Assembly (NCBI RefSeq): GCF_020386635.1 | Contig: NZ_CP081942.1 | Location: forward strand, 310,001-374,000 | Reading direction: 5' to 3' | Source: Pseudomonas sp. MM211 | GTDB taxonomy: Bacteria; Pseudomonadota; Gammaproteobacteria; Pseudomonadales; Pseudomonadaceae | Length of the DNA: 64,000 nucleotides | Part shown: one piece after another, positions 34,410 through 47,251 of the stretch | Numbering within the stretch: the first letter of the stretch is position 1 | Layout of the letters: every line of letters starts with the position of its first letter | Translations under genes and position numbers: made by a program | Notes under the pieces: model-generated | The model's input: the letters and a program-made list of their open reading frames with translations, nothing else | Told to the model about the DNA's origin: nothing | Database searches by the model: none

Positions 34410-35096
34410 ATTGGGAATTGATCCTCAAACACCTGCCGAAAATGGCTGAAGGTGCGCTGCTGACCCTCGAGCTGCTCGCTGTGGCAGTCATCGCTGGTCT
34501 TATCCTTGCGCTGCCCATGGGCATCGCCCGCGCCTCGCGCCTGTGGTACGTGCGCGCCGTGCCCTACGGTTACATCTTCTTCTTCCGTGGCACACCGATG
34601 CTGGTGCAACTGTTCCTCATCTATTACGGCCTGGCGCAGTTCGAATCCGTGCGCCGGGGTCCGCTGTGGCCTTACCTGCGCGACCCATACTGGTGCGCGG
34701 TGATCACCATGACCTTGCACACCACCGCTTATATCGCCGAGATCCTGCGCGGCGCTATCCAGGCCGTGCCACCGGGCGAGATCGAAGCGGCAAGGGCTCT
34801 TGGCATGTCACGTGCGCAGTCGATGCTGCATATCATCCTGCCACGCGCTGCACGCATCGGCCTGCCGGCCTACAGCAACGAAGTCATCCTGATGCTCAAA
34901 GCCAGTGCACTGGCCAGTACCGTAACCCTGCTGGATTTGACGGGCATGGCACGCACGCTAAACGCGCGCGACCTATGTGAACATGGAGTTCTTCTTCACC
35001 GCCGCCGTGTTCTATCTGGTGATCACCTTCGTGCTGATCAACGTCTTCAAACTGCTGGAACGCTGGCTGCGCGTCGACGCCTGCCAGGGCCGCTGA
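34406..35096 (+). pseudogene. Amino-acid ABC transporter permease (HisM-like), frameshifted near the 3' end
   Basis: The frame reads as a normal permease (EAA loop EIEAARALGMSRAQSMLHIILPR) to about residue 188. It then leaves the family pattern at the GCGCGCGACC run (34963-34972). Removing one G restores ARTYVNMEFFFTAAVFYLVI and a final membrane helix ending at the TGA at 35094-35096. As given, the protein has an unrelated hydrophilic tail to 35101 and lacks its last membrane segment. The rest of the operon is intact, so either the importer is inactive in this strain or a base was added in assembly. Confidence 0.88.
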
Positions 35097-35129
35097 AGTG
35101 ACGGGGCTCACGCCCCGCCACCCTTCATC

Positions 35130-36359
35130 ATGAGCGAATCCCAATCTCTCCAGCCACTCGGTGGCGATGCTCTGCTCCAGCGCTTCCAGGCGCTGGACGC
35201 ATTTCTCTGCGCGCACCAGGCGCTATGGAAACCACGCCCCTTCACCCATCGGCTATTGCCTTGGGAGAACCGACACGCCGAGCTCGGCAACTGGCTGCGC
35301 AGTCGCACGCTTGAACAGGCCGAAGCAGCCCATAATCAGCCGACCGCATTGCAGGCCGCTCCTGCGCCCTTTCCCGAGCTGGCCGCCGAGGCGGCATGGC
35401 TGAATGAAATTGGCGACCTGCCCCAGCGTGCGCCTCACGAGCTGCCGTCACGCTTCTCGGTAGATGTACCAGGCCGCAAGTGGCAGCAGGTACGCGCCTT
35501 CAGCGACAGCCTGCAATTCAATCGCCCGCCGCAGCATTGGTTGGATTGGTGCGCGGGCAAAGGCCACCTGGGCCGCGTGCTCGCTCATGGCGGCCAGGCG
35601 TTGACCTGCCTGGAGTACGATCCCGCCCTGGTCGTCAGCGGCAGCGACCTTAGCCAGCGCCTGGGGATAACTGCACAGCACATCGAACAGGATGTGCTCG
35701 CCAGCACTGCCAGCGAACGAGTCCTCGCCACGCACAGCCCCGTCGCCCTGCATGCCTGTGGCGACCTGCACGTGCGCCTGATGCACCTGGCCAGCGCGGC
35801 AGGCTGCCAGCAATTGGCGATCGCTCCGTGCTGCTACAACCGCACCGCTGCGAGCAGCTACCAGGCGTTATCCACAGCGGCGCAGGAATCGACACTCGAC
35901 CTGTCGCTGGACGACTTGGCCCTGCCCATGAGCGAAACCGTCACCGCCGGCAACCGTGTGCGCCAGCAGCGCGATCAGTCCATGGCCTGGCGTCTGGCCT
36001 TCGACCTGCTGCAGCGCGAATTGCGCGGCGTGGACGACTACCTGCCCACCCCTTCACTGCCCCCCGCCTGGCTGAAGAAAGGCTTCGCTGCTTACTGCCG
36101 CGACCTGGCCGAACTGAAGGGGCTGCCACCGCCCGAAGAGCGCGATTGGCAGGCTCTCGAAGCAGCCGGCTGGCAGCGCCTGGCCGAAGTGCGCAATCTG
36201 GAATTGCTGCGCGGCCTGTTCCGTCGCCCACTGGAACTCTGGCTGGTACTCGACCGCGCGCTGTATCTGCAGGAACAGGGCTATGCCGTACGCCTCGGCC
36301 AGTTTTGCCCCACGCACCTCACGCCACGCAACCTGCTACTGCTCGCCGAACGCGCCTGA
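35130..36359 (+). CDS. SAM-dependent methyltransferase (Methyltransf_32 type)
   Basis: A 409-residue cytoplasmic protein. The central Rossmann methyltransferase has WLDWCAGKGHLGRVLA (motif I), TCLEYDPAL (motif II) and HSPVALHACGDLHVRLM, followed by APCCYN. This ACGDLH/PCCY pairing is typical of the Methyltransf_32 family. The substrate is unknown; RNA is a reasonable guess. It lies 33 bp after the permease and may be expressed from the same transcript. Confidence 0.8.
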   Translation: MSESQSLQPLGGDALLQRFQALDAFLCAHQALWKPRPFTHRLLPWENRHAELGNWLRSRTLEQAEAAHNQPTALQAAPAPFPELAAEAAWLNEIGDLPQRAPHELPSRFSVDVPGRKWQQVRAFSDSLQFNRPPQHWLDWCAGKGHLGRVLAHGGQALTCLEYDPALVVSGSDLSQRLGITAQHIEQDVLASTASERVLATHSPVALHACGDLHVRLMHLASAAGCQQLAIAPCCYNRTAASSYQALSTAAQESTLDLSLDDLALPMSETVTAGNRVRQQRDQSMAWRLAFDLLQRELRGVDDYLPTPSLPPAWLKKGFAAYCRDLAELKGLPPPEERDWQALEAAGWQRLAEVRNLELLRGLFRRPLELWLVLDRALYLQEQGYAVRLGQFCPTHLTPRNLLLLAERA

Positions 36360-36629
36360 GTTGCGCACACAATCTGTGGATAACTCTGTTCACAAATTCT
36401 GAGCAACAGCCGCCAAGCCACCTTGTACAAGCCTCAATCAAAGCTGATCATTTTTTGACCATAAGAAAAATCTATATAAAACAATCTCTTGTAAAATCGG
36501 TTTAACGCTGCGTAAGAGATCGCCAAAACGATCTACCCGCCCCGCATTTGTGCATAAGCCGCGCCAGGGCGCCAAAAAAAGAGCAGCAAAAACCTGCCGC
36601 AAGCGTCTTTACTCATGCAAACGAATGGA

Positions 36630-36635
36630 TATAAT
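36630..36635 (+). promoter_or_regulatory. -10 box of tRNA-Thr
   Basis: A perfect TATAAT 14 bases before the tRNA, at the end of an AT-rich 290-bp gap (36360-36649) that holds no gene. The -35 is poorly conserved (GTCTTT region near 36605-36610). Confidence 0.7.
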
Positions 36636-36649
36636 GGCGACCCTCAAAT

Positions 36650-36711
<62 letters not shown>

Positions 36712-36725
<14 letters not shown>

Positions 36726-36803
36726 TACAACACAAGGCCTCGCAGAAATGCGGGGCCTTGTCGTTTCTGGCGGTTGCTTATGCAGCACCCACAAGATGCC
36801 CAC
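36712..36803. repeat. Left direct repeat A (tRNA-Thr 3' end and terminator)
   Basis: The last 14 bases of tRNA-Thr plus the following ~78 bp are repeated in the same orientation at 43904-43993 with about a dozen differences. The shared part includes the tRNA-end GGTGCCG-CACCA, the hairpin and TTGTCGTTTCTGGC. This looks like an attL-type junction of an island. Confidence 0.8.
36732..36765 (+). terminator. Terminator of tRNA-Thr
   Basis: Stem ACAAGGCCTCGCA / TGCGGGGCCTTGT with GAAA tetraloop and one G-T pair, followed by a weak T-rich stretch (CGTTTC). Confidence 0.75.
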
Positions 36804-36915
36804 GAAGCAACCCTCACCACACTTGCCAATGACTCAAGCATGAGCGCAGTTGCTGATCAGGACTAAGGTTACCGGGTGAAAACGAAACCTGGCGCCTGCC
36901 TGCAAGGGACATCAA

Positions 36916-37254
36916 GTGGACATCTCAACCGCACAAAGCATCAAGCTCGCTATCGTCTCGGCAACCGGGCTGTCGAAGGACGCACTGCATATTTATGTGG
37001 GCATGGCGGTGTATTTGGCGCTGATCGCCTTCACACGACGACTCAGGCCATACATTGCCTGGCTGGGTGTTCTCATCATCGCCTGTGCTGGCGAGTGGGT
37101 GGACAGGCGAGACGATATAGAAAGCCTCGGATACTGGCGCTGGCAGGCCAGCATTCACGACATCATCAACACGCTGTTCTGGCCGACGGCGCTCACACTT
37201 TTTTGGCTTTTGAAGTGCGGCAGAAAAACAGGCGTACCCCCTCGCCTCGAATGA
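36916..37254 (+). CDS. Small membrane protein, three predicted helices
   Basis: 112 residues with hydrophobic segments at about 27-40, 46-60 and 82-99, and a charged loop EWVDRRDDIES between the second and third. GTG start, with an AAGGGA stretch about 10 bases upstream. No family recognised. The gene lies in a ~450-bp stretch present only at the left copy of the duplicated tRNA/chemotaxis flank. The right copy lacks it, so it was inserted there or lost on the right. Confidence 0.6.
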   Translation: MDISTAQSIKLAIVSATGLSKDALHIYVGMAVYLALIAFTRRLRPYIAWLGVLIIACAGEWVDRRDDIESLGYWRWQASIHDIINTLFWPTALTLFWLLKCGRKTGVPPRLE

Positions 37255-37302
37255 CTCAAGGCGAGGTTCAGGCCAAGCGAGGCTTGATGTTTTAAATCGG
37301 CC

Positions 37303-37404
37303 ACTCGATGAGAGCCGCAGGCCCACACCGAGCGCTTTGCGTCAGCTCGAGACCTGGCTGGAGAACTGGCTTACGGCAGCGACGACGCACTCTGCGTCCT
37401 TCTG
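37303..37404. repeat. Left direct repeat B (3' fragment of chemotaxis gene)
   Basis: 102 bp about 88-90% identical by eye to 44056-44159, the 3' end and downstream flank of the methyl-accepting chemotaxis gene. On the minus strand it encodes the gene's last ~20 codons (KDAECVVAAVSQFSSQVSS, stop at 37342-37344). The homology ends abruptly at 37404, where the palindromic repeat begins. It is a boundary duplication, not a gene. Confidence 0.82.
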
Positions 37405-37420
37405 AGGCAGAAAAGGGGAC

Positions 37421-37490
37421 GGCAGAAAAGGGACAGATTTATTTTTCGGCGCTGGTTGATGTGCCATTAAATAAATCTGTCCCCTTTTTC
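37421..37490. repeat. Palindromic ~68-bp repeat, copy 1
   Basis: Arms AAAAGGGACAGATTTATTT / AAATAAATCTGTCCCCTTTT around the loop TTCGGCGCTGGTTGATG-TGCCATT. Copies 2 and 3 lie at 38698 and 39192. An extra partial arm (GCAGAAAAGGGGAC) precedes it at 37408-37420. REP-like; in other bacteria such AAAAGGGGACAG-type palindromes are associated with REP/RAYT transposases, but none is encoded here. Confidence 0.8.
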
Positions 37491-37518
37491 CCCCAATCAA
37501 TATCACATAGGAATTGGC

Positions 37519-38338
37519 ATGAATACCGAAGAATTTCTCTCCGCAGCATCTCAAATCAAAGATGTCATCGCCTTCATTATCCCGATAACAATATCGATAT
37601 TTGCCTTTCTATATGTCCGAGCCCGAGCTGGATCCGCAGGATTTATTCACGATCGTCTCTGGCGATTACTTGGTGGAAAGAAAGACTATCAGAACACGAT
37701 GCTTCAAAATGAATATAGCCAATTAAGCGATCATGAGAAATTCAATTACAGCACGGGCATTAGATTCCCAAGCCAAAGGAAGATCACAGAGGCATTGGTT
37801 TGGCTTCATGAGCGTGGGATCGGGTTAGAAGAAGTTGTTAGGGTCAGGAGGTTTTTTAATCCGAGCCTCATTTCATTTGATAAGCCATGTCTACTCGGCT
37901 ATAGGCTCAGCCACTGAACTACTATGTCATTTCTCATCGGGGCAACGATAATTTTTATTTTATCTTTTCTGCCTGCCGCGCTCTTGACCATAAAGAAAAC
38001 AGACACTGTAATCTGGGCTTCTACCTCCATGGTCACAGATTGGAATGGCTACGGCTGGCAAATAAAAGGAGGAGGACTGCATTGACGGGAAGATTGAGAA
38101 AATTAAGTTAGATCCCCATGACGAAATGGTCATTTGTGACATCCTCACTAAAGAAGAAAATGCGAAGCATCTACAGTCATCTATGCTGACTCAGAAAATC
38201 TTTGGGGGTATGTTTTGGGCTATTTTCAGTTTTTTAGCGTTTGTGTCTGTACGGGCACTGGTGATTGCTAAACAGGCAAATGCGCTCTTTGAGCGAGCTC
38301 TAGCTCATCAACCACTTCAAGAACAGCTTCCTTTCTAA
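37519..38338 (+). pseudogene. Decayed membrane protein gene (nonsense + frameshift)
   Basis: Three pieces read as one ~272-residue protein. 37519-37917 encodes an N-terminal membrane helix and a soluble part ending RLSH before a TGA (37915-37917). The same frame resumes immediately as TTMSFLIGATIIFIL, so TGG to TGA at that codon would explain the break. At 38062-38068 the frame is lost again; dropping one A from the AAAA run joins WQIK to EEDCIDGKIEKIKL and to the piece ending at 38338, which has a third helix. It is reminiscent of DUF6216-type membrane proteins, but I am not sure. Visibly AT-rich compared with the flanking core genes. Confidence 0.65.
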
Positions 38339-38436
38339 GTAAAAGACTAAGCTCTCGTTCGAATGGATATGCGCTAATCTGGATCATCGAGATAAACCGT
38401 CTCAGGAACAGTTAAATCAACCTTCTCGCAGCGTCA

Positions 38437-38471
38437 GAAAAAATGTCCGCTTGTGATTGGGAAGCGGACAT
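38437..38471 (-). terminator. Terminator for a leftward transcript
   Basis: A perfect 10-bp stem ATGTCCGCTT / AAGCGGACAT (38443-38471), which on the minus strand runs into TTTTTT. It lies 20 bp past the stop of the truncated gene at 38491. Confidence 0.8.
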
Positions 38472-38490
38472 GCCGGTGAGGATGTAGCAT

Positions 38491-38693
38491 TTAGCTACCC
38501 CGAAGTGGAATTTCGCGTTTCTCATAAATATAATCAACGCGCTCACATCCTACGATCCAGCGTCCAGCCATATTGATGGTCATTGAATTAGTTGCGCCCA
38601 CCTCCTCTTTGGAGAGAAATCTGGTGCTGAAAGGGGGGTATAGGATTCTTTTGCCCATACACTTCATTTCGGCAGGTGCAAGCAGTATGGCAA
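38491..38693 (-). pseudogene. Truncated small gene remnant
   Basis: An open minus-strand frame ends at a TAA (38491-38493) and reads LAILLAPAEMKCMGKRILYP at its upstream side, like the end of a signal peptide. It continues to a C-terminal WIVGCERVDYIYEKREIPL. It has its own terminator downstream but no start: the frame runs straight into palindromic repeat copy 2 at 38698. An internal ATG would give about 57 residues. I read it as a gene cut by arrival of the repeat. The rest of 38339-38928 shows nothing else. Confidence 0.4.
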
Positions 38694-38697
38694 GCTG

Positions 38698-38761
38698 CAG
38701 AAAAGGGGACAGATTTATTTTTCGGCGCTGGTTGATGTGCCATTAAATAAATCTGCCCCCT
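38698..38761. repeat. Palindromic repeat, copy 2
   Basis: Near-identical to copy 1 (CAGAAAAGGGGACAGATTTATTTTT ... arm split here as AAATAAATCTGCCCCC). It ends the open frame of the truncated gene at 38491-38693. Confidence 0.82.
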
Positions 38762-38928
38762 CCTCTAAGTTACCTACAACAAAAAGAAGAAGAAGCAGGG
38801 ATTAACGCCCCCGACTGAAACTTTTAAAAATTACGCCAAACAACGATAAAGGCTAAATAACCAAAACCACCACTCTCCACACTGACCTGAAAACATCAAA
38901 GACTCATAACTAGCCAAGTGCCATATAT

Positions 38929-39165
38929 CTACAGAGACGGAAAATAACCCGCATTGATATTCAACCATTGACTAAACTGAACTAGAGCCCCAGGAATACA
39001 AAACTTGACACCTCTAAAGTAAAGCCCACCACCCTTCCCACCAAATAAATCTAGGGCGAGCGAAACAACCATCAGGGCAACCCCGGAGCAGGCAAGAACA
39101 AATGAAATCAAATTAAAAGTAGTCCAACATAAATAAATAAAACATTCAAAACTAAAGACAATCAT
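38929..39165 (-). CDS. Possible small membrane protein
   Basis: 78 residues with two hydrophobic segments (about 5-24 and 26-45) and a Gly-rich turn (GGKGGGLYF). It is flanked by palindromic repeat copies 2 and 3. AT-rich codon use matches hamAB, and no family is recognised. The ribosome-binding site is poor, so it may be spurious. Confidence 0.4.
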   Translation of the reverse strand: MIVFSFECFIYLCWTTFNLISFVLACSGVALMVVSLALDLFGGKGGGLYFRGVKFCIPGALVQFSQWLNINAGYFPSL

Positions 39166-39191
39166 ATACCGTAATTACCGTACCTGAATCA

Positions 39192-39260
39192 CAGAAAAGG
39201 GGATCGATTTATTTTTCGGCGCTGGTTGATGTGCCATTAAATAAATCTGCCCCCTTTTTC
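39192..39260. repeat. Palindromic repeat, copy 3
   Basis: Same ~68-bp element (one arm GGGGATCGATTTATTT, other arm AAATAAATCTGCCCCC), 66 bp past the hamB stop. In the leftward direction the hairpin ends in TTTT, so it may also terminate hamAB. Confidence 0.82.
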
Positions 39261-39326
39261 TATTGCTATTTCCTCCCACAAACGAGGAATTTTCTGCTAC
39301 CAAGAGCTCCTACTCTTCATCTAAAA

Positions 39327-41948
39327 TTAACTAGAAGCCAAGGTATCAATAGTTCTCAAGGTAAAAATAACTTTATCGATTTCTGCCAAAATTACAGGGC
39401 TAAGTTTGAAGGGTGACGAGTCAAACTTTAAAAGCTTTTCTCTTGCGGCTGCCACATCAAGATTGCTATCAGGGATGATTCTTTGAAGCTCAGAAGCAGC
39501 AATGCGAGAGAGTCCCAACTCCAGAAATGCGCGCCCTGTATTCGTGCTGATGCCCAGTTCCAGAGCCAGCGCGAAGTCAAAAATTTCGGGAACCCTGTGA
39601 GTCAGGCCATTATCATTAAATACATGGATCAATATATCAGTATAGGCCTTACCCATCTGCACAAGCTGAAACCGAATGACGTCTTCAATGGTTTCAAACG
39701 CGCTCTTGATGACCTTACTCGGATTAGCATCTGCGATAACCTTAGCCTTGTAGCCTGGAATGGTATTAAAATTAAGCTTCTCTAGGTTACGTTTCTTGTT
39801 AATCCGACGTCTTTCGCTTATCACCTCATACTTTAAAATTACTGGATAGGGCTTTCCCTCCATCCACTTAACTGCAATACGGGCTACGTAGCCACCGAAA
39901 TTTTTATCAAACCCTTTTATATACCTGAAAAGTATATTGAATATTTCCTTGTAATGAGCAAAGGCTTTCTTACCTAAATCCGCTGGATTTTTAGGTACCA
40001 CTTCGTCGATAGTGCCATCCTTCAGCCGCTTGATGAGGTGAGCCATCAACCTATCCAGAGCGAACAAATCTAATGTCCAGTTCCCTTCTATAACGTGCTG
40101 GGGTAGCTTGAGGTCGTTAGAAGCTTCATCAGCTGCATTTTGAAGATCCTGCAACTCAAAGTAATTTAAGTCCGGCGCGATCCTATCAAGATATTCCTTA
40201 ACTATTCCTTGTCGAGATTTACTAACAAGAATACCGGCTGAAGCAACTGCATTACGGGAATACTCATCTCTAGGTTTGGATTCAAGCTTCCCTTTACTTA
40301 GCACTGTAACAACATCCTTGTAGTTTTCAGTTACAAACTCAGAAAGCGCAGACTTGATAGTAAACTTATAAAAAATGTCCATTGGCTGAGCACTCCAATC
40401 ATCATAATCGATGAGGAATACGTTCCCGACGATATCTTTGGCCATGCGCCCGGCTCTACCGGCAAAATTCCAAAGCAGAGCTGGATCCAGCATCACGCTA
40501 TGACCGCGCCCTCTGGCAGGCGTACTTATAAATACATTTCGAGCTGGAAGATTGATACCCTGAAACAGGGTTGTAGTGCACACAAGGAATTTGATCGTGC
40601 CGGCACGAAACGCGGACTCAATGGCTTCACGCAGCAGGGATGGCATCTGCCCATAATGGAATGCCACCCCTTTTTTAACCATTCCTATTAAGTGATACTC
40701 GGGGTGTATATGTTCCTTGATAAAGGTGGCGAGTTCATTATTGTCAACATGATCTAAACCTATGGCAATTGAACCGGCAATAGTTGCGGCCTCAGTAGGC
40801 GTTTTTGCATATATCAAAGATCCACCGCCGCGCCCCAACTCTAGTGCTACAGCAGCGAGCCTGCTTTCAACCAAGTCAAGGCCAACGCTGCACGGCATAC
40901 TTCCTATATGAGAGCCTCCATGAGAGTTGAGTAACTTAAAGTCTAGCTGATTTAGAGCTGGTGTTTTTGATACCACGATACGGTTTTGCAGGACGGGGGA
41001 CACAGAGGTGCTGACTTCTGAAACTCCAGATATCCCCAAACTATCTAATGCAGTTTCAAAACCTTGAGCCCCGGGTGCGAGCAGAACCACATGCGTTTTC
41101 TGATCACGGGAGTAGCACTGTTCAATGCAATCCTGCAGTATCATCCCTCGGGCCCCATCTGATAAATTTTGGGCCTCGTCTACGACTACAAGTTTTATTG
41201 GGGATGAGGTTATCGAAAGAAGGGCTTTGAACCGCTCCTGGGTAAGCACGAAGACTTGCCGCGGCAAGTTCTCAAAAGTAGGAATATCTGTAACACGAAT
41301 AGCCAAATCGCTTGAAAGCCGCTCTTTTACTTTCAGTTGAACTTCAGACAATAGGGCGCGCGTAGGCGCAATGTAGACGAACACGTAAGATGGAAGCGTC
41401 AAGGCATCTCTACAAAGATGCTCAATTACCAAGAATGACTTTCCAGCGGAGGTAGGTGCAGAAATAGCTAAAGACTTCCCACTCTGGAGAGAGCCCCACA
41501 CCTTCCGCTGATAATCGGTTAGTGCAATGGCCGCCCCTGCTACTTCAACTGTATTTAGCTGCTCGACAACATTCCTCTGGATCATTCCTAATAAGGTTGA
41601 GGGCTTCGTAGAGAACCGCTCCTCAGCATAAATTAAACTAGGAAAATTCCCAATTTCAGTCAGTATCGCCGCACACCGTTCAAGCACCCCCGGTTCCTGC
41701 GATATTAACATGGCATTAAAAGCTATCGTTTGAGCCAAGCTGATATGCGACTCAACCCCAGATTGTGCAAATACTGATGCGCAATAAAGCATTTTTCCGA
41801 TTGCGTCATTATCAGGCAATCCATGGGGTTGTATAATTGAGTCAGGTAGTACACTGGCCGCACCACAAGCTTGGAGATGGCTTAGTGCAAACTTAAACTT
41901 CTCATTCGTTGCAAACCTCGACGAGAGTTCTGCTGCAAAAGTACTCAT
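39327..41948 (-). CDS. hamB: Hachiman defence helicase HamB
   Basis: An 873-residue superfamily-2 helicase of the Ski2/Hel308 type. Motif I is APTSAGKS (164-171), motif II DEAQ (257-260), followed by IV/V-like FLVCTTTLFQGINLPA (454-469) and motif VI NFAGRAGR (494-501). A long C-terminal part (about 520-873) has no motif I recognise. HamB is paired with the nuclease HamA in Hachiman, an anti-phage system in which the complex senses damaged or altered DNA and degrades DNA indiscriminately (established for other Hachiman systems). The ATG overlaps the hamA stop (ATGA). Codon use is AT-rich, unlike the flanking core genes, pointing to horizontal transfer. Confidence 0.9.
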   Translation of the reverse strand: MSTFAAELSSRFATNEKFKFALSHLQACGAASVLPDSIIQPHGLPDNDAIGKMLYCASVFAQSGVESHISLAQTIAFNAMLISQEPGVLERCAAILTEIGNFPSLIYAEERFSTKPSTLLGMIQRNVVEQLNTVEVAGAAIALTDYQRKVWGSLQSGKSLAISAPTSAGKSFLVIEHLCRDALTLPSYVFVYIAPTRALLSEVQLKVKERLSSDLAIRVTDIPTFENLPRQVFVLTQERFKALLSITSSPIKLVVVDEAQNLSDGARGMILQDCIEQCYSRDQKTHVVLLAPGAQGFETALDSLGISGVSEVSTSVSPVLQNRIVVSKTPALNQLDFKLLNSHGGSHIGSMPCSVGLDLVESRLAAVALELGRGGGSLIYAKTPTEAATIAGSIAIGLDHVDNNELATFIKEHIHPEYHLIGMVKKGVAFHYGQMPSLLREAIESAFRAGTIKFLVCTTTLFQGINLPARNVFISTPARGRGHSVMLDPALLWNFAGRAGRMAKDIVGNVFLIDYDDWSAQPMDIFYKFTIKSALSEFVTENYKDVVTVLSKGKLESKPRDEYSRNAVASAGILVSKSRQGIVKEYLDRIAPDLNYFELQDLQNAADEASNDLKLPQHVIEGNWTLDLFALDRLMAHLIKRLKDGTIDEVVPKNPADLGKKAFAHYKEIFNILFRYIKGFDKNFGGYVARIAVKWMEGKPYPVILKYEVISERRRINKKRNLEKLNFNTIPGYKAKVIADANPSKVIKSAFETIEDVIRFQLVQMGKAYTDILIHVFNDNGLTHRVPEIFDFALALELGISTNTGRAFLELGLSRIAASELQRIIPDSNLDVAAAREKLLKFDSSPFKLSPVILAEIDKVIFTLRTIDTLASS

Positions 41949-42991
41949 ATTTTTCCACCCTTAATTGCTGAGGGCGAAGTTAGAGGGACATCAGAATCCA
42001 AACTCGCTATCCCTATCGACTCGTAAAACATTTCTCTTAGCTCATCGACATCAGGTACAGCCACCAAATAAACCATGCATTTATTTGGATCGACTCCCTT
42101 AACACCTAGCTGGTTATCGAGGTTAGTAAAATGTCTGTTTAAGTCTCCTTTATACAGTTCCCCGAAATAATCCTCATGCTTGGATAACGGGCCGTCATCG
42201 ACTTCAAGCTTGTTCGCAAAATGCTTGACCTCTGAATAACAGACTACCCCGACAGATCGCTCACGCTTGGGAGCATTGGGATTACCAAATACGTCCAGAT
42301 AATTTAGCATCAGATCTTTATCAGCTGGATCCAGTACATCAAGATTTCCTAAGCTGGTTACCAGCCCGTACTCATGCTCATATTGCCCGTCATCTTTGAG
42401 AAAGCCAGAAACGGAGTCTGCATAGTCAGCAGTACCACTGGCGGCGGTACCTGCGAGCTTGGACTCAAGAAAGAAAACATTCAGCTCACCGTTGACTACG
42501 GATGCGTGAATACCATCGAGGCCATAAACAGGCATGTTATTGGAGGTTTTCAAGGCCATCTTGGCAATTAGTTGAGAGGCCTGAAGGTGGTGTACGGCGA
42601 CGCAGTATGCGAGTACTTCACCCACCTCGCTGGCTCTAGATGGGTTAGCCTGTCGAAACTCAATGAATGCCTTTCTAACAGCCCGGCTGAGTTCTTGCGC
42701 AGCTGACACATCGCCGTTTTGCGCTGATGCCATCTGAGCTTGGTATGCATCTCGGCGTCGACGACTCAGTGCATAATTCGCCGCTTGATTTCCAAGGAAG
42801 TCGGAAAAAGCTCTTATACTGGGAATATCTTCCTTGAATCGTACATGCAGAAGTGCGACCCGTGGAGCCTTATAGGGAGGAACGCTCGTTAAATCCACGA
42901 CACACTTAACAAAACGATCCAATGGTGATTTATCCAAGAGTTTCTGGATAACACTACTGAGCGACGGCGGACTATCTGCAGGTGACGACAC
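41945..42991 (-). CDS. hamA: Hachiman defence nuclease HamA (DUF1837)
   Basis: A 348-residue DUF1837 protein. A PD-(D/E)xK-like site is visible: Asp159 in YGLDGIHAS and Glu176-x-Lys178 in FFLESKL, with a preceding helix carrying GEVLAY (Glu125). These agree with HamA being the effector nuclease held in check by HamB. It begins with GTG at 42991; an ATG alternative is not near. It is upstream of and coupled to hamB, the standard Hachiman order. The helicase neighbour and ESK motif make the call secure; the specific phages targeted cannot be read from sequence. Confidence 0.88.
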   Translation of the reverse strand: MSSPADSPPSLSSVIQKLLDKSPLDRFVKCVVDLTSVPPYKAPRVALLHVRFKEDIPSIRAFSDFLGNQAANYALSRRRRDAYQAQMASAQNGDVSAAQELSRAVRKAFIEFRQANPSRASEVGEVLAYCVAVHHLQASQLIAKMALKTSNNMPVYGLDGIHASVVNGELNVFFLESKLAGTAASGTADYADSVSGFLKDDGQYEHEYGLVTSLGNLDVLDPADKDLMLNYLDVFGNPNAPKRERSVGVVCYSEVKHFANKLEVDDGPLSKHEDYFGELYKGDLNRHFTNLDNQLGVKGVDPNKCMVYLVAVPDVDELREMFYESIGIASLDSDVPLTSPSAIKGGKI

Positions 42992-43342
42992 TGATCCGAT
43001 CCTTGGTTTTGCCTAAGGCATAGGCTGGCACTGTTTGACGCGCTTGCACAAACACAGGTCTGATCATGACTCGAAAAGAGTCAATTTGCCACTATCCTTA
43101 CGACGCCCGTCGAGCTACTCGGTAAGCATTCATGACGTGCTTCGCTCGATCAGTGGGCCACTGCATGGATAGAAGTGGTCGATGGGACTTGGTAAGCGTG
43201 GTGGATTTCTCCAGAGCGGTATGGTGGAGAACGATTGCCAGTGAACCTTCCTGTCCACTCAGGAAAAGCCTGTATTCGAAACAAGGCGATTGCCGTGACC
43301 AACCGGCTCTAGGTCTGTTGCCGTTTCAACCCGAGCCGCGTT

Positions 43343-43459
43343 GTTGCGAGAAATCTCGCCAGGCTAGGCAGCTATCCACTAGGTGGGGGAATGGACTGGC
43401 CGTCCGCGTTTTCCCTTGCCAAGTCCTCCAACGACGCCTGGCGAGATTTCTCGCACAAC
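43343..43459. repeat. BIME-like pair of inverted palindromes upstream of hamA
   Basis: Two arms, GTTGCGAGAAATCTCGCCAGGC (43343-43364, written in two parts GTTGCGAGAAAT and CTCGCCAGGC) and its inverse at 43436-43459, are 71 bp apart. Each arm is itself a hairpin (GCGAG-AAAT-CTCGC). The rest of 42992-43496 contains no convincing gene. TGACTC-GAAAA-GAGTCA at 43067-43083 is a small palindrome that could be an operator for hamA. Confidence 0.75.
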
Positions 43460-43496
43460 CCGCAGGGCCGCAGCCGTAACATACTAATCATCAACG

Positions 43497-43691
43497 TCAC
43501 TTAGGCCCCACGTTCAGAGAGCTAACATAGCCACGCAGGTGGGTCATCGCAGCTGACTCAGGAGTGAGGCCTCGTAGAATCGTGGTGCGCTGAGTTCCGT
43601 CTGGAAGCAGCACCAGTATTTCGTCGCCTAAGTCTGTGTAGGACGCGGCATAAACGACGCCGTCATGTACCAAGATGATTTCTTCTTCCAT
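43497..43691 (-). CDS. Small hypothetical protein
   Basis: 64 residues, alternating hydrophobic and charged (IILVHDGVVYAASYTDLGDEILVLLPDG), a compact beta-like pattern without membrane segment. The frame lacks the AT-rich codon use of hamAB. The ribosome-binding site is weak (AGAGA) and no family is recognised. It lies inside the island near its right end. The following 43692-43903 is AT-rich and holds no gene I can see. Confidence 0.5.
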   Translation of the reverse strand: MEEEIILVHDGVVYAASYTDLGDEILVLLPDGTQRTTILRGLTPESAAMTHLRGYVSSLNVGPK

Positions 43692-43903
43692 TAATAATCT
43701 CTAAATCGTGTTTTGAGCGTATCTGACGAAGTGAGTCAGCATGTCTACACCACACCCTAGTAAAGCAATCCAATACGCTCAGGCATAGCTAAACAGAACG
43801 CATTCGATCAGTGCCAGGATAAAGGATATTTGAAGGGATAAGACGATATAAACAACCATGAAAACTTCATTAAAATCAGACAGATAAAATAAATTTTAGC
43901 TCT

Positions 43904-43993
43904 TGGTGCCGCACCATACGACACAAGGCCCCGCAAAAATGCGTGGCCTTGTCGTTTCTGGCAGTTGCTTATGCAGCGCCCACGAGAAGTCCA
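43904..43993. repeat. Right direct repeat A (tRNA-Thr 3' end and terminator)
   Basis: Starts TTGGTGCCGCACCATACGAC, the last bases of tRNA-Thr with one G missing, and continues through the same hairpin (ACAAGGCC-CCGCA / TGCG-GGCCTTGT) as 36732-36761. No tRNA body precedes it. It marks the right edge of the island. Confidence 0.8.
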
Positions 43994-44055
43994 CTAGAGC
44001 GAACGACTCAAGGCTGGGTCGGGTATTGCCAAGCTTGGCGGGCTCGATCAGAAGC

Positions 44056-44159
44056 GCTCGATGAGTCACCCGCAGGCCCTCACCGAGCGCTTTGCGTCAG
44101 TTCGAGACCTGGCTGGAGAACTGGCTCACGGCGGCGACGACGCACTCGGCGTCCTTCTG
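44056..44159. repeat. Right direct repeat B (3' end of chemotaxis gene)
   Basis: Homologous to 37303-37404. Here it is the true 3' end and downstream flank of the chemotaxis gene; the left copy is the detached fragment. Confidence 0.82.
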
Positions 44160-45489
44160 GATATCCTGGATCACGGTGTCGGAGTCGTTGGCCAGGGTCA
44201 GTGCTTCATCGGCCAGCTCGCGGCTGCGGTTGATCACGTCGACAGCATTGGAGGCGAGCTCCTGGTTCTGTTGCACCACGCCGACAATTTCCTGGGTGGC
44301 TTTCGAGGGCCCTTGAAGCGAGCTGACGGACTTCATCTGCCACCACGGCGAAACCACGGCCTTGCTCACCCGCACGTGCAGCTTCTATCGCGGCATTGAG
44401 CGCTAGCAGGTTGGTCTGGTCGGCGATGCCGCTGATGGCTTTGACGATGGCTTCGATCATCTGGCCCTGCTGATCCAGCGCCTGAATACCCTGGGTGGCG
44501 TTCTCCATCGAGCTGGCCAGGCGATGCAGCACTTCGACCGTATTACGGATGACCTCACGGCCCTTGCTGGCGCTGGTGTCCGTCTGCAGCGATGTGCTGT
44601 AGGCCAGGTTGGCGGCCTGGGCGACGGCTTTTTCCAGGTTCACCTGCTCGGTGATCACGGTGGCGAACTTCACCACCTTGTAGAGCTTGCCGTGAATATC
44701 GGTGATGGGGTTGTAGGAGGCTTCCAGCCAGACGTCTCGACCGCTGCTGTCGATGCGGCGGAAGCGCGCGACGACGAATTCACCGCGGCGCAAGCGCTCC
44801 CAGAACTGACGATAGCCCTCCGAGGCACTCTCCTCGGCGGTGCAGAACATGCGGTGGTGCTTGCCCACAACCTGCGCGAGGTTGTAGCCCATGCCGCGCA
44901 GGAAGGAATCGTTGGCGGTGATGACCGTACCGTCCAGGCTGAATTCGATTACCGCCGTCGAGCGCAGCAGCGCCTTGACCAGGCTCTCGTTCTCCAGCGA
45001 CGCCTCGATGGTGCGCGTCAGGTTGCTGGAGTGGATGACCACCTGCTTTGTGCCACTCAAATGATCGCTCATGGGAATGACCACAGAACGCAGCCATACG
45101 TGCTGGCCATCCTTGCCCAGCAAGCGCAAGGCACCGTTGAAATGGCGACGCTCCTTGATCGCGGAGAGCGCGCGCAACTGGTGCGGGTCACGGGCCAGTT
45201 CCGACGGCGATAGCTGGGTCAGGTACTGCCCCTCGACTTCCCCGGCCCGGTAGCCGAGTTCGTTCTGGAACAGCTCGTTGACACGCTCGATGCGGCCATC
45301 CGCGCTGAGCTGGATGATGATCATTTCCTTTTCGAGGTTCTCCCTTACCTCCTCCTGCATCGCTAAGCGAGCTTCCAGCTCACTGTTGATTTGTTTGAGG
45401 CGAGAGTTGAACACGACAAGGACTCCAGAGTAGGTATCACTGCATCGGCCCGAGGACGAGAATCTTGAAAAGTGAGTATTGCCGAACAT
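44097..45489 (-). pseudogene. PAS-domain chemotaxis transducer (BdlA-like), frameshifted
   Basis: About 463 residues when joined. It is soluble, with two PAS domains (about 45-155 and 165-280: [47 protein letters not shown]) and a short MCP signalling region with the hairpin [20 protein letters not shown]. This layout matches BdlA, the biofilm-dispersion transducer. In the GGGCCC run at 44307-44312 one extra base shifts the frame after VRQLASRA. Removing it gives [15 protein letters not shown], continuing to the stop at 44097. As given the product loses about 70 residues of its coiled coil. The start at 45489 ([10 protein letters not shown]) is preferred over a 44-residue leftward extension. 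Confidence 0.85.
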
Positions 45490-45728
45490 GGCCTTCTTGA
45501 GCACGGATCGCTCGCACGCCAGCGGCCAGGCACAGGGTTGCGCTTGCAATAAGCACTCAGCGAGTAAGGCTGGATTGTCGCTGCAGGCAACTATGCAGGG
45601 TTGGCGTCCTGGCAAGGGCAAGAAGCATCAGTCGCTATCGCGGTTTTAACGTGCCTGGCGGGCGACCACCCCTTGGAGGTGAGGCCTATGTGGGGATCTT
45701 CTGATTCGCCCCCTGCAAGGCTACATGA

Positions 45729-46340
45729 TCATGGCTTGGCGAGAAGGCCACTGCTCTGCTGCGTGAAACCGGCATTATGCCGACAGAGTAGCGAGCCAAT
45801 GCTGAGCATGCCGATATGTACACCCTCGCAGGCCAGCTCCTGCCGAAGGCCTTGCAGATAGCTGCACGCCGCGGTCGCTGGGTCTTTATCGCCAGGGTTC
45901 GGCGGTGTGGCCACTTCAGTGTCGTTGCGCTCGACCAGGATGGCGCCCGACTTGCGCGAGCGCATTTCTGGCAGCACTTCGTCCACCACGGCAGTCATGC
46001 TCAGGTAGGTAAGCGCGCATGTTTCGGTGGCGCTGTCCGGGTTCAATGCGGCGGCGTAGTCAGCTGTATTGAGCGGATCGAGGCCGTAGTACACCGCATC
46101 GATAGGGCCGACCGTGCTGCGGATGGATCTGATCATCGCCTTGGCGTGCTCGGGGCTGGAGACGTCGCCGGTGAAGGTTCGTGTCGAGATGCCTTCGCTT
46201 TCCAGCACGGTCGTCAGTGCGCGCACGCACTGCGCGTCATCGGCCACCAGCACCACGTCGTAGCCGTCATTGCCGTACTGGCGAGCGGCCAATGCACCTG
46301 CGCTGTTCTGCGCACCGAATACCACAAGAGTCCGACTCAT
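45729..46340 (-). CDS. SDR-family protein, degenerate
   Basis: 203 residues with a Rossmann start, but the cofactor motif is FGAQNSAGALAA in place of TGxxxGxG. The catalytic Tyr-x3-Lys is not apparent; the corresponding region reads DPATAACSYLQGLRQEL. It probably binds a nucleotide but may have no classical dehydrogenase activity. Divergent from the OmpR-type regulator at 46553. Confidence 0.65.
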   Translation of the reverse strand: MSRTLVVFGAQNSAGALAARQYGNDGYDVVLVADDAQCVRALTTVLESEGISTRTFTGDVSSPEHAKAMIRSIRSTVGPIDAVYYGLDPLNTADYAAALNPDSATETCALTYLSMTAVVDEVLPEMRSRKSGAILVERNDTEVATPPNPGDKDPATAACSYLQGLRQELACEGVHIGMLSIGSLLCRHNAGFTQQSSGLLAKP

Positions 46341-46552
46341 GATCAGCCCTACCTAACAGTTGCGGTGCTCTGCTGGCACAGATCTGCAGGTAGCACATGT
46401 CCCGGCAGGATCTGTGCACCGGCTAGGCAGAGAAAGCCGCTGCGACGCATGAAGCCCCGATCCCTGGGAGCAGTTGTCCTGGCATAGTCACCGCCGAACA
46501 TTGCCTGAACATTGCGTCGCAAACTTTTGCGCTCCGCTACTATGGCGCCTCG

Positions 46553-47251
46553 GTGAAACGGTGCGGTGAAGCGGCTTTGCGAATCCTTCTGGTCGAAGAT
46601 GACTTACCTATGGCCCAGGCCCTGCAGGCAGCGTTGGGGCGCCATGGCTTGATCGTGGACATGGTTCATTCGCTCGCCGCAGCGGCGATGACCTTGCGCC
46701 TGCATGTGCACGATCTGTTGCTCCTCGATCGCGGCCTGCCCGATGGCGATGGTCTCGACTTCATTACCACCGCCCGGCGCCTGTCGCCCGCCCTGCCGAT
46801 CGTGCTGCTGACCGCCCGCGGGGAAATCGCAGAACGGGTCGATGGCCTGAATGGTGGGGCGGACGATTACGTGGTCAAACCCGTTGCCGCCGACGAACTC
46901 CTGGCCCGCATAAGGGCCATCGCTCGGCGCCCGGCAACAGTCATTCTGCCTACCGCCACCCTTGGCGCGCTGTCTTTCGACTTCACCGCCAGTGAGGCCA
47001 TCGTCGATGGCCTGCCGCTTCATCTACCCCGGCGCCAGCTGCTGATTCTGGAGGCCCTGATCTATCGCCAAGGGCGAACCGTGCTGCGAGAAAACCTTCA
47101 TGAAGCGGTCTACGGCCTGGCCGACGAAATCCAGTCGAACGCGCTCGATGCCCATGTCTCGAAGCTGCGTCGCGCACTGAAGGAAGCCGACGCAGGGGTC
47201 GAGATCGCGGTGATTCGTGGCGTCGGCTATCTGCTCAAGGAAGGCCAATGA
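46553..47251 (+). CDS. OmpR-family response regulator
   Basis: 232 residues. A receiver (ILLVEDDLPM, acceptor Asp in LLLLDRGLPDGDG, LLTARGE, VVKPVAADELLARI) is followed by a Trans_reg_C winged helix (LPRRQLLILEAL, SNALDAHVSKLRRAL, VIRGVGYLL). GTG at 46553, or TTG at 46577 (which would start LRILLVEDD), are possible starts. The ATGA overlap with the kinase gene marks a two-component pair. Confidence 0.93.
   Translation: MKRCGEAALRILLVEDDLPMAQALQAALGRHGLIVDMVHSLAAAAMTLRLHVHDLLLLDRGLPDGDGLDFITTARRLSPALPIVLLTARGEIAERVDGLNGGADDYVVKPVAADELLARIRAIARRPATVILPTATLGALSFDFTASEAIVDGLPLHLPRRQLLILEALIYRQGRTVLRENLHEAVYGLADEIQSNALDAHVSKLRRALKEADAGVEIAVIRGVGYLLKEGQ

Follow-up and report, generated by a model that had tools for sequence, protein, structure and literature searches.

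A stretch of 64,000 nucleotides from Pseudomonas sp. MM211 (contig NZ_CP081942.1, positions 310,001 to 374,000; hereafter the window, with positions counted from its first letter) carries the genes hamA and hamB which, judging from their sequences, are a complete, ordinary and well-preserved canonical two-gene Hachiman anti-phage system and very probably represent the cargo of a decayed integrative element at a tRNA-Thr gene. Hachiman and integrase-driven defence islands in Pseudomonas have both already been published. The two genes lie on the minus strand, and an initial annotation made from the DNA letters had given their positions and their overlap exactly: hamA (41945..42991; GTG start, at the same position as in the 95% relative P0001) encodes a DUF1837/HamA effector nuclease of 348 amino acids (aa), and hamB (39327..41948; ATG start) an 873-aa Ski2/Hel308-like SF2 sensor helicase. 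They share the four bases ATGA (41945..41948, minus strand), which suggests translational coupling; the related pairs at loci L002, L003 and L004 also overlap by four bases, and that at L005 by eight.

Profile searches bear out the identification as Hachiman, with PF08878 being positive for hamA and the PADLOC Hachiman models for both genes. Among the PADLOC HamA models, HamA matched HamA1 (PDLC00172) best (2.7e-126, residues 12-329), and its match to PF08878 (3.6e-32, residues 62-311) reached 112.5 bits at a cut-off of 25. The best HamB model for HamB was HamB1 (PDLC00187), which covers residues 1-859 with 993.5 bits (2.3e-299), and DEAD and Helicase_C were the only Pfam families above cut-off. 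In total, 27 PADLOC models were matched by HamB; the top 12 of the 25 listed are HamB models, and the best model of another kind, PDC-M23B, reached 119.8 bits as compared to 993.5 bits, so that HamB does not group with a different defence family.

The residues expected for nuclease activity are conserved in the aligned HamAs. The initial annotation had highlighted D159 and E176-x-K178 of HamA, and their numbering proved correct: D159 (codon 42515..42517, minus strand), the putative metal-binding aspartate of a D-ExK motif, as well as E176 and K178 of the E176-S177-K178 stretch (codons 42458..42466, minus strand) are invariant in 39/39 aligned HamAs, i.e., the window's protein and 38 of 120 listed relatives from a protein search that found 194. 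They are likewise kept in 22/22 full-length Pseudomonas HamAs, a set drawn from 25 matches in 24 genomes after removal of a fragment in genome G058 and of two split halves in G325. In the Hachiman paper (PMC12278908), which tested E138/K140 of HamA from Escherichia coli ECOR31, the counterpart of the E176-S177-K178 stretch is the D-E(X)K motif.

The helicase motifs I, II, V and VI, described as intact before, are all present in HamB, and their core residues are invariant in 33/33 aligned HamBs (the window's protein and 32 of 120 listed relatives; the search found 1972 among 8000 candidates scored). In motif I (Walker A; APTSAGKS, residues 164-171; 41436..41459) this applies to A164, P165, T166, A168, G169, K170 and S171, in motif II (DEAQ, residues 257-260; 41169..41180) to D257, E258 and Q260, and in motif VI (GRAGR, residues 497-501; 40446..40460) to the complete motif; motif V reads GINLP, and all coordinates refer to the minus strand. 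Approximately 140 residues precede the RecA1 domain, lie under the PADLOC profile and are partly conserved; in ECOR31 HamB, the region before RecA1 binds HamA (PMC12278908). At the other end, the initial annotation saw no motif in the C-terminal ~350 residues. This holds for Pfam, which reports DEAD and Helicase_C only, but family members share conserved sequence there, which the PADLOC HamB profiles match up to residue 859 and the solved helicase chain 9wh1_B up to residue 823. By analogy with ECOR31 HamB (PMC12278908), this part should hold a degenerate winged helix and a C-terminal helical region.

In sequence comparisons with the Protein Data Bank (PDB), HamB matched 9wh1_B best (119.7 bits), followed by AbpB (8zue_B, 83.8 bits), Hel308, Pol theta, Ski2 and Brr2, and then ECOR31 HamB (8vx9_B) at 39.4 bits. 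The HamB family profile aligns with 9wh1_B over residues 138-823, comprising the helicase core and the C-terminal part. This chain of 853 aa, the closest solved HamB relative by sequence, bears the deposited name "DNA polymerase theta (Helicase domain only)", and one might guess that it is in fact a differently labelled HamB.

The composition of the pair sets it apart from its surroundings. The GC content at third codon positions is 0.44 for hamA and 0.43 for hamB compared to 0.63-0.81 in seven neighbouring open reading frames (ORFs), confirming the AT-rich codon use noticed earlier, and the GC content per kilobase is 0.41-0.51 over about 37-44 kb vs. 0.55-0.66 in the rest of the window. At the left border of this stretch, ARAGORN predicts a tRNA-Thr(TGT) gene (36650..36725, plus strand), the integration target of the island family described below. 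Its 3' end together with the terminator forms an attL-like direct repeat (36720..36803, plus strand) with 89% identity over 84 bp to an attR-like repeat (43911..43994, plus strand), which, at 97.6 bits, is its sole other strong match in the window, the runner-up reaching 26.3 bits. The repeats are 7.2 kb apart, and the low-GC stretch fills the space between them. Moreover, the left repeat matches the far-end repeat of islands in seven other genomes. Among 57 genomes searched, G001 (L075) has the most similar flanks, which align at 80-83% and enclose no such island; this site holds a histidine-kinase-like gene unaligned to the window and is consequently no exact empty site. The island setting proposed by the initial annotation is real, and can be phrased more sharply as the relic of an integrative element at tRNA-Thr.

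One island gene is recognised in the window, a homologue of the 117-aa gene p117 (36907..37254, plus strand), which has no Pfam family, is 78.6-79% identical to p117 of L082 and L076 (overall range 78-79%) and occurs in 14/398 genomes of the genus (E up to 1e-20); in L082, it stands directly 3' of the integrase gene. It is followed by a copy of the 3' end region of a chemoreceptor gene (37315..37404; 94% over 90 bp to 44070-44159 in the right island flank). This copy behind p117, in the left part of the island, is unexpected from a single simple integration; integration in tandem with a later deletion would predict it, as would a crossover within the flank. A 132-aa ORF (37519..37917, plus strand) matches DUF6216 (PF19723, 7.2e-22) only at profile positions 7-112 of 270 and is probably a truncated remnant; the frames downstream look broken. 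The nearest upstream neighbour of hamA is a divergent 115-aa ORF (43132-43479, opposite to hamA) with no Pfam family.

For the 440-aa integrase and the 326-aa recombinase of related islands no match was found in 35001-46600 at E up to 1e-3, and a search of the complete genome for the recombinase (E up to 1e-60) gave no match either. Compared with integrase-driven defence elements at tRNA sites, the end repeats are in place, and no tyrosine integrase gene was found inside. As one island gene and neither recombinase has been kept, the island has the appearance of an immobile remnant of such an element rather than of an intact member of its kind.

In addition, three 64-bp hairpin repeats occur in the island (37422-37485, 38698-38761 and 39192-39255), two of which are 91% and 97% identical to the third. 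Their ends resemble AAAAGGGGACAGATTTATTT. The genome contains 12 related matches elsewhere, 10 of which lie together at 2.443-2.448 Mb and surround two Y1_Tnp (IS200-like) genes, suggesting that the hairpins are REP elements mobilised by a RAYT-type transposase.

Further hints on the origin of the island came from the same site in relatives. In at least 9/36 genomes of the genus, the own genome included, the tRNA flank recurs within 15 kb on its contig. In total, 19 tRNA-Thr sites were fetched by their match to the window region (L075-L093), all of which carry the same tRNA. The comparison covers seven sites that have a second repeat (L076-L082) and leaves out L083, an eighth of this kind. Six of the seven islands feature a full tyrosine integrase of 440-488 aa beside the tRNA, L076 showing only a 58-codon stretch from near the integrase end. 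Six likewise encode a recombinase of about 326-342 aa, with a relative of the 91-aa gene p91 behind it; PF12835 was found in the one recombinase scanned (L077), and the others were assigned by 66-82% identity. A 123-aa gene (p123) is present in all seven, in some as pieces, and p117 in two.

Regarding the cargo of these islands, a PADLOC scan of 20 of their about 69 ORFs revealed complete or single-gene systems in three of them, i.e., Gabija in L078, a distant Hachiman in L079 (HamA by Pfam) and AbiD in L076. Partial or domain-level hits comprise CARF, PRTase and methyltransferase in L076, PRTase in L081, UvrD- and kinase-like proteins in L080 and weak hits in L077; none was obtained among the three ORFs scanned in L082. 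As a control, 10 neighbours in the window were scanned, two of which (a sensor kinase and an ATPase-like protein) also hit PADLOC at E up to 1e-5. PADLOC hits alone were hence rejected as proof of defence cargo; hits at domain level carry little weight, and only the complete or single-gene systems (Gabija, Hachiman and AbiD) are counted as firm. The operon-like gene set at L076:1463-6824, which encodes a CARF6 protein, an ORC-CDC6-like ATPase (PF24389), a PRTase and a type II methyltransferase-like protein, is possibly a conflict system. At L077:3851-5103 and in relatives, the gene for the PF12835-type recombinase is directly followed by the 91-aa gene, which belongs to no Pfam or NCBIfam family. 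The recombinase was matched in 167/398 genomes (E up to 1e-60), several times near defence genes.

Hachiman recurs close to such elements. At least five genomes have a HamA no more than about 7 kb away from a core gene of the element, namely G002 (integrase; L079), G090 (L098), G188 (L099), G367 and G046, the latter two being judged by coordinates only. G188 carries, one after the other, tRNA-Thr(CGT), integrase, p123, 326-aa recombinase, p91, HamA and HamB, which may be the layout the window's island once had. Only this layout is put forward, as the G188 element cannot be claimed to be intact given an integrase that matches in two overlapping pieces in different frames and a recombinase match containing one TAG stop; the 19 kb of L099 showed the 3' end of its tRNA-Thr(CGT) only once. 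On a tree of 22 HamAs, for part of which wide flanks were read, location in such an element (six rows, the window counted) requires five changes, gains or losses alike, at least four of which are imposed by branches with good support. Shuffled labels needed as few changes in 242/500 cases, so that the clustering on the tree does not exceed chance. A tentative explanation would be that the island is what is left of a member of a hitherto undescribed family of small tRNA-Thr defence elements with two recombinases in Pseudomonas, a family which would have taken up unrelated Hachimans several times and whose second recombinase may exchange cargo. The proposed core of this family consists of the integrase, p123, the PF12835-type recombinase, p91 and exchangeable defence cargo. 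Literature searches, judged by titles and abstract openings, found no publication on a two-recombinase tRNA-Thr element. As insertion sites, tRNA-Pro and ssrA are named as hotspots (PMC10250203), tRNA-Thr is among the known island sites in P. aeruginosa (PMC8373256), and the islands PAPI, PAGI and LESGI are treated in PMC12629846.

Several observations weigh against an ordinary Hachiman pair brought in by this element. The canonical published HamA motif is D-GEXK (PMC12799240), but the window's HamA reads LESK. The residue before the catalytic glutamate is a leucine in 10/22 Pseudomonas HamAs (the window's clade and two more) and a glycine in 12/22; on the strength of this alignment, the exchange can be read as clade-level variation at one non-catalytic position, which would not exclude the protein from Hachiman. 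Neither the single HamA protein nor its profile matched any PDB chain at E up to 1, and because no solved HamA is recognised by sequence, the window's HamA clade is distant from ECOR31 HamA; the likeness of HamB to the characterised ECOR31 HamB (39.4 bits) is weak as well. On the side of the element, the search for the 440-aa integrase covered 35001-46600 of the window only, and a candidate integrase stub upstream of p117 was discarded, the 31-nt similarity to the integrase 3' end being reached by 21/500 shuffles. Finally, the fetched flanks (at most 10 kb) of the nearest HamAB relatives L002, L003 and L004 contain no island genes, and hamAB is therefore not tied to this element.

One alternative starts from the relatedness of the helicase to AbpB, the second-best PDB match of HamB, and from the treatment of AbpAB as a Hachiman variant in PMC12278908: the window's HamA could be a HamA-like adaptor protein for a different effector, with no nuclease activity of its own. 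The active site is lost in AbpA and in virtually all protease-HamA fusions (PMC12278908, PMC12799240), however, whereas D, E and K are all present here. Moreover, in the 348-aa HamA the only Pfam domain at E up to 0.01 is PF08878 over residues 62-311, and between 37327 and 44096 there is no co-oriented ORF of at least 80 aa besides the pair, the nearest one upstream being the divergent 115-aa ORF, all of which renders this alternative extremely unlikely. A housekeeping or stress-related DNA-repair helicase-nuclease pair with no role in phage defence would fit the resemblance of HamB to the Hel308 and Pol theta helicases, and Hachiman has been reported to respond to DNA-damaging agents, too (PMC12278908). 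We consider such a role very unlikely in view of the patchy presence of the system (a HamA match at E up to 0.001 in 24/398 genomes, the own one included), its location in an island of foreign composition and the finding that other Hachimans are carried by islands which hold Gabija or AbiD elsewhere.

The decay of the rest of the island, with its truncated DUF6216 ORF, missing integrase and three inserted hairpin repeats, could also mean that hamA and hamB are themselves a dead relic kept by chance. Both frames are of full length, however, and dN/dS values of 0.061-0.087 for hamA and 0.070-0.098 for hamB (0.06-0.10 overall) were obtained against L002, L003 and L004, the closest relatives with the same pair (HamA 87-88%, HamB 80-81% identical). 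These ratios come from three Pseudomonas pairs, the fourth (L005) being not computable, and are averaged over the whole time since the split of the relatives, with dS values of 0.96-1.86 near saturation; they nevertheless make a dead relic very unlikely. A canonical two-gene Hachiman stranded in a decayed integrative element thus remains the preferred interpretation.

Concerning its distribution, hamA is present in one copy in the genome of 5,281,862 bp. None of 50,697 phage records matched at E up to 1e-5, and 26/72,556 plasmid records did, all with less than 60% identity. At L094 (G325:C33:1-14000), hamA is split into two oppositely oriented halves, the second beside an N run, near an AAA_21 (AbiEii-like) ATPase and other genes of no family. 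Phase inversion was considered for this locus and not accepted as phase variation: the second half starts beside the N run, bases 2-19 of the contig recur inverted once in the fetched 14 kb, and a recombinase family was found in 0/9 ORFs scanned (24 listed). The plainer reading is probably an insertion element plus mis-scaffolding.

Gene content, order, overlap, catalytic and helicase residues, selection and setting are shown by the sequence, and the mode of action proposed for the pair is carried over from the distant E. coli ECOR31 system (PMC12278908). HamB would survey DNA and keep the HamA nuclease in check as long as the DNA is intact. Loading of HamB on free 3' single-stranded ends, as they may arise during phage replication or from damage to the host genome, could then lead to ATP hydrolysis by HamB and thereby to the activation of HamA, whose D159/E176/K178 site would degrade the DNA of both phage and host, and the infected cell would die before phage release. 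The element itself would have been reduced to its two end repeats and one gene, with integrase and second recombinase lost, and has probably lost the capacity for autonomous excision.

The window adds one more Hachiman from a LESK clade of HamAs far from the characterised E. coli pair, and members of this clade could show whether genome-integrity sensing holds across the Hachiman family. Its setting suggests how a mobile defence system becomes stranded as a fixed chromosomal pair after loss of the integrase. Furthermore, the widespread core of recombinase plus 91-aa gene might aid the search for further defence cargo in Pseudomonas.

Compared to known systems, the pair shares with ECOR31 HamAB (PDB 8VX9, 8VXA, 8VXC, 8VXY; PMC12278908) the two-gene organisation, a DUF1837 nuclease with D-E(X)K and a Ski2-like helicase with an extra N-terminal region. 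It differs in the length of HamB (873 aa here, a 1174-aa chain there, matched with 39.4 bits only) as well as in a HamA of no detectable sequence similarity that reads LESK instead of GEXK. The PADLOC models HamA1 (PDLC00172) and HamB1 (PDLC00187) match both genes over nearly their full length, and chain B of 9wh1/9whk/9whu (853 aa) is the best solved relative of HamB, with the profile aligning over 138-823. AbpAB (8zue) has a helicase related to HamB and a HamA-like domain in AbpA, but AbpA combines an N-terminal Cap4-like nuclease with an inactive HamA site (PMC12278908), whereas the HamA described here has an intact site and no second Pfam domain. HamMAB, the nuclease-protease Hachiman of P. 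fluorescens (PMC12799240), comes from the same genus and uses the same kind of sensor helicase. Its HamA is, however, a protease fusion in which the motif is gone, and HamM is a separate nuclease; in the window, there is neither a second Pfam domain in HamA nor a co-oriented third ORF. The tmRNA-site intY elements I23, I44 and I55 of Pseudomonas (PMC12595487) integrate at tmRNA and not at tRNA-Thr, and the island family described here additionally has a PF12835-type recombinase and the 91-aa gene beside its integrase, both recombinases being gone from the window's copy. Common to these elements and the island family are direct repeats beside a tRNA-like gene, a tyrosine integrase, the carriage of phage-defence cargo and no recognised transfer genes.

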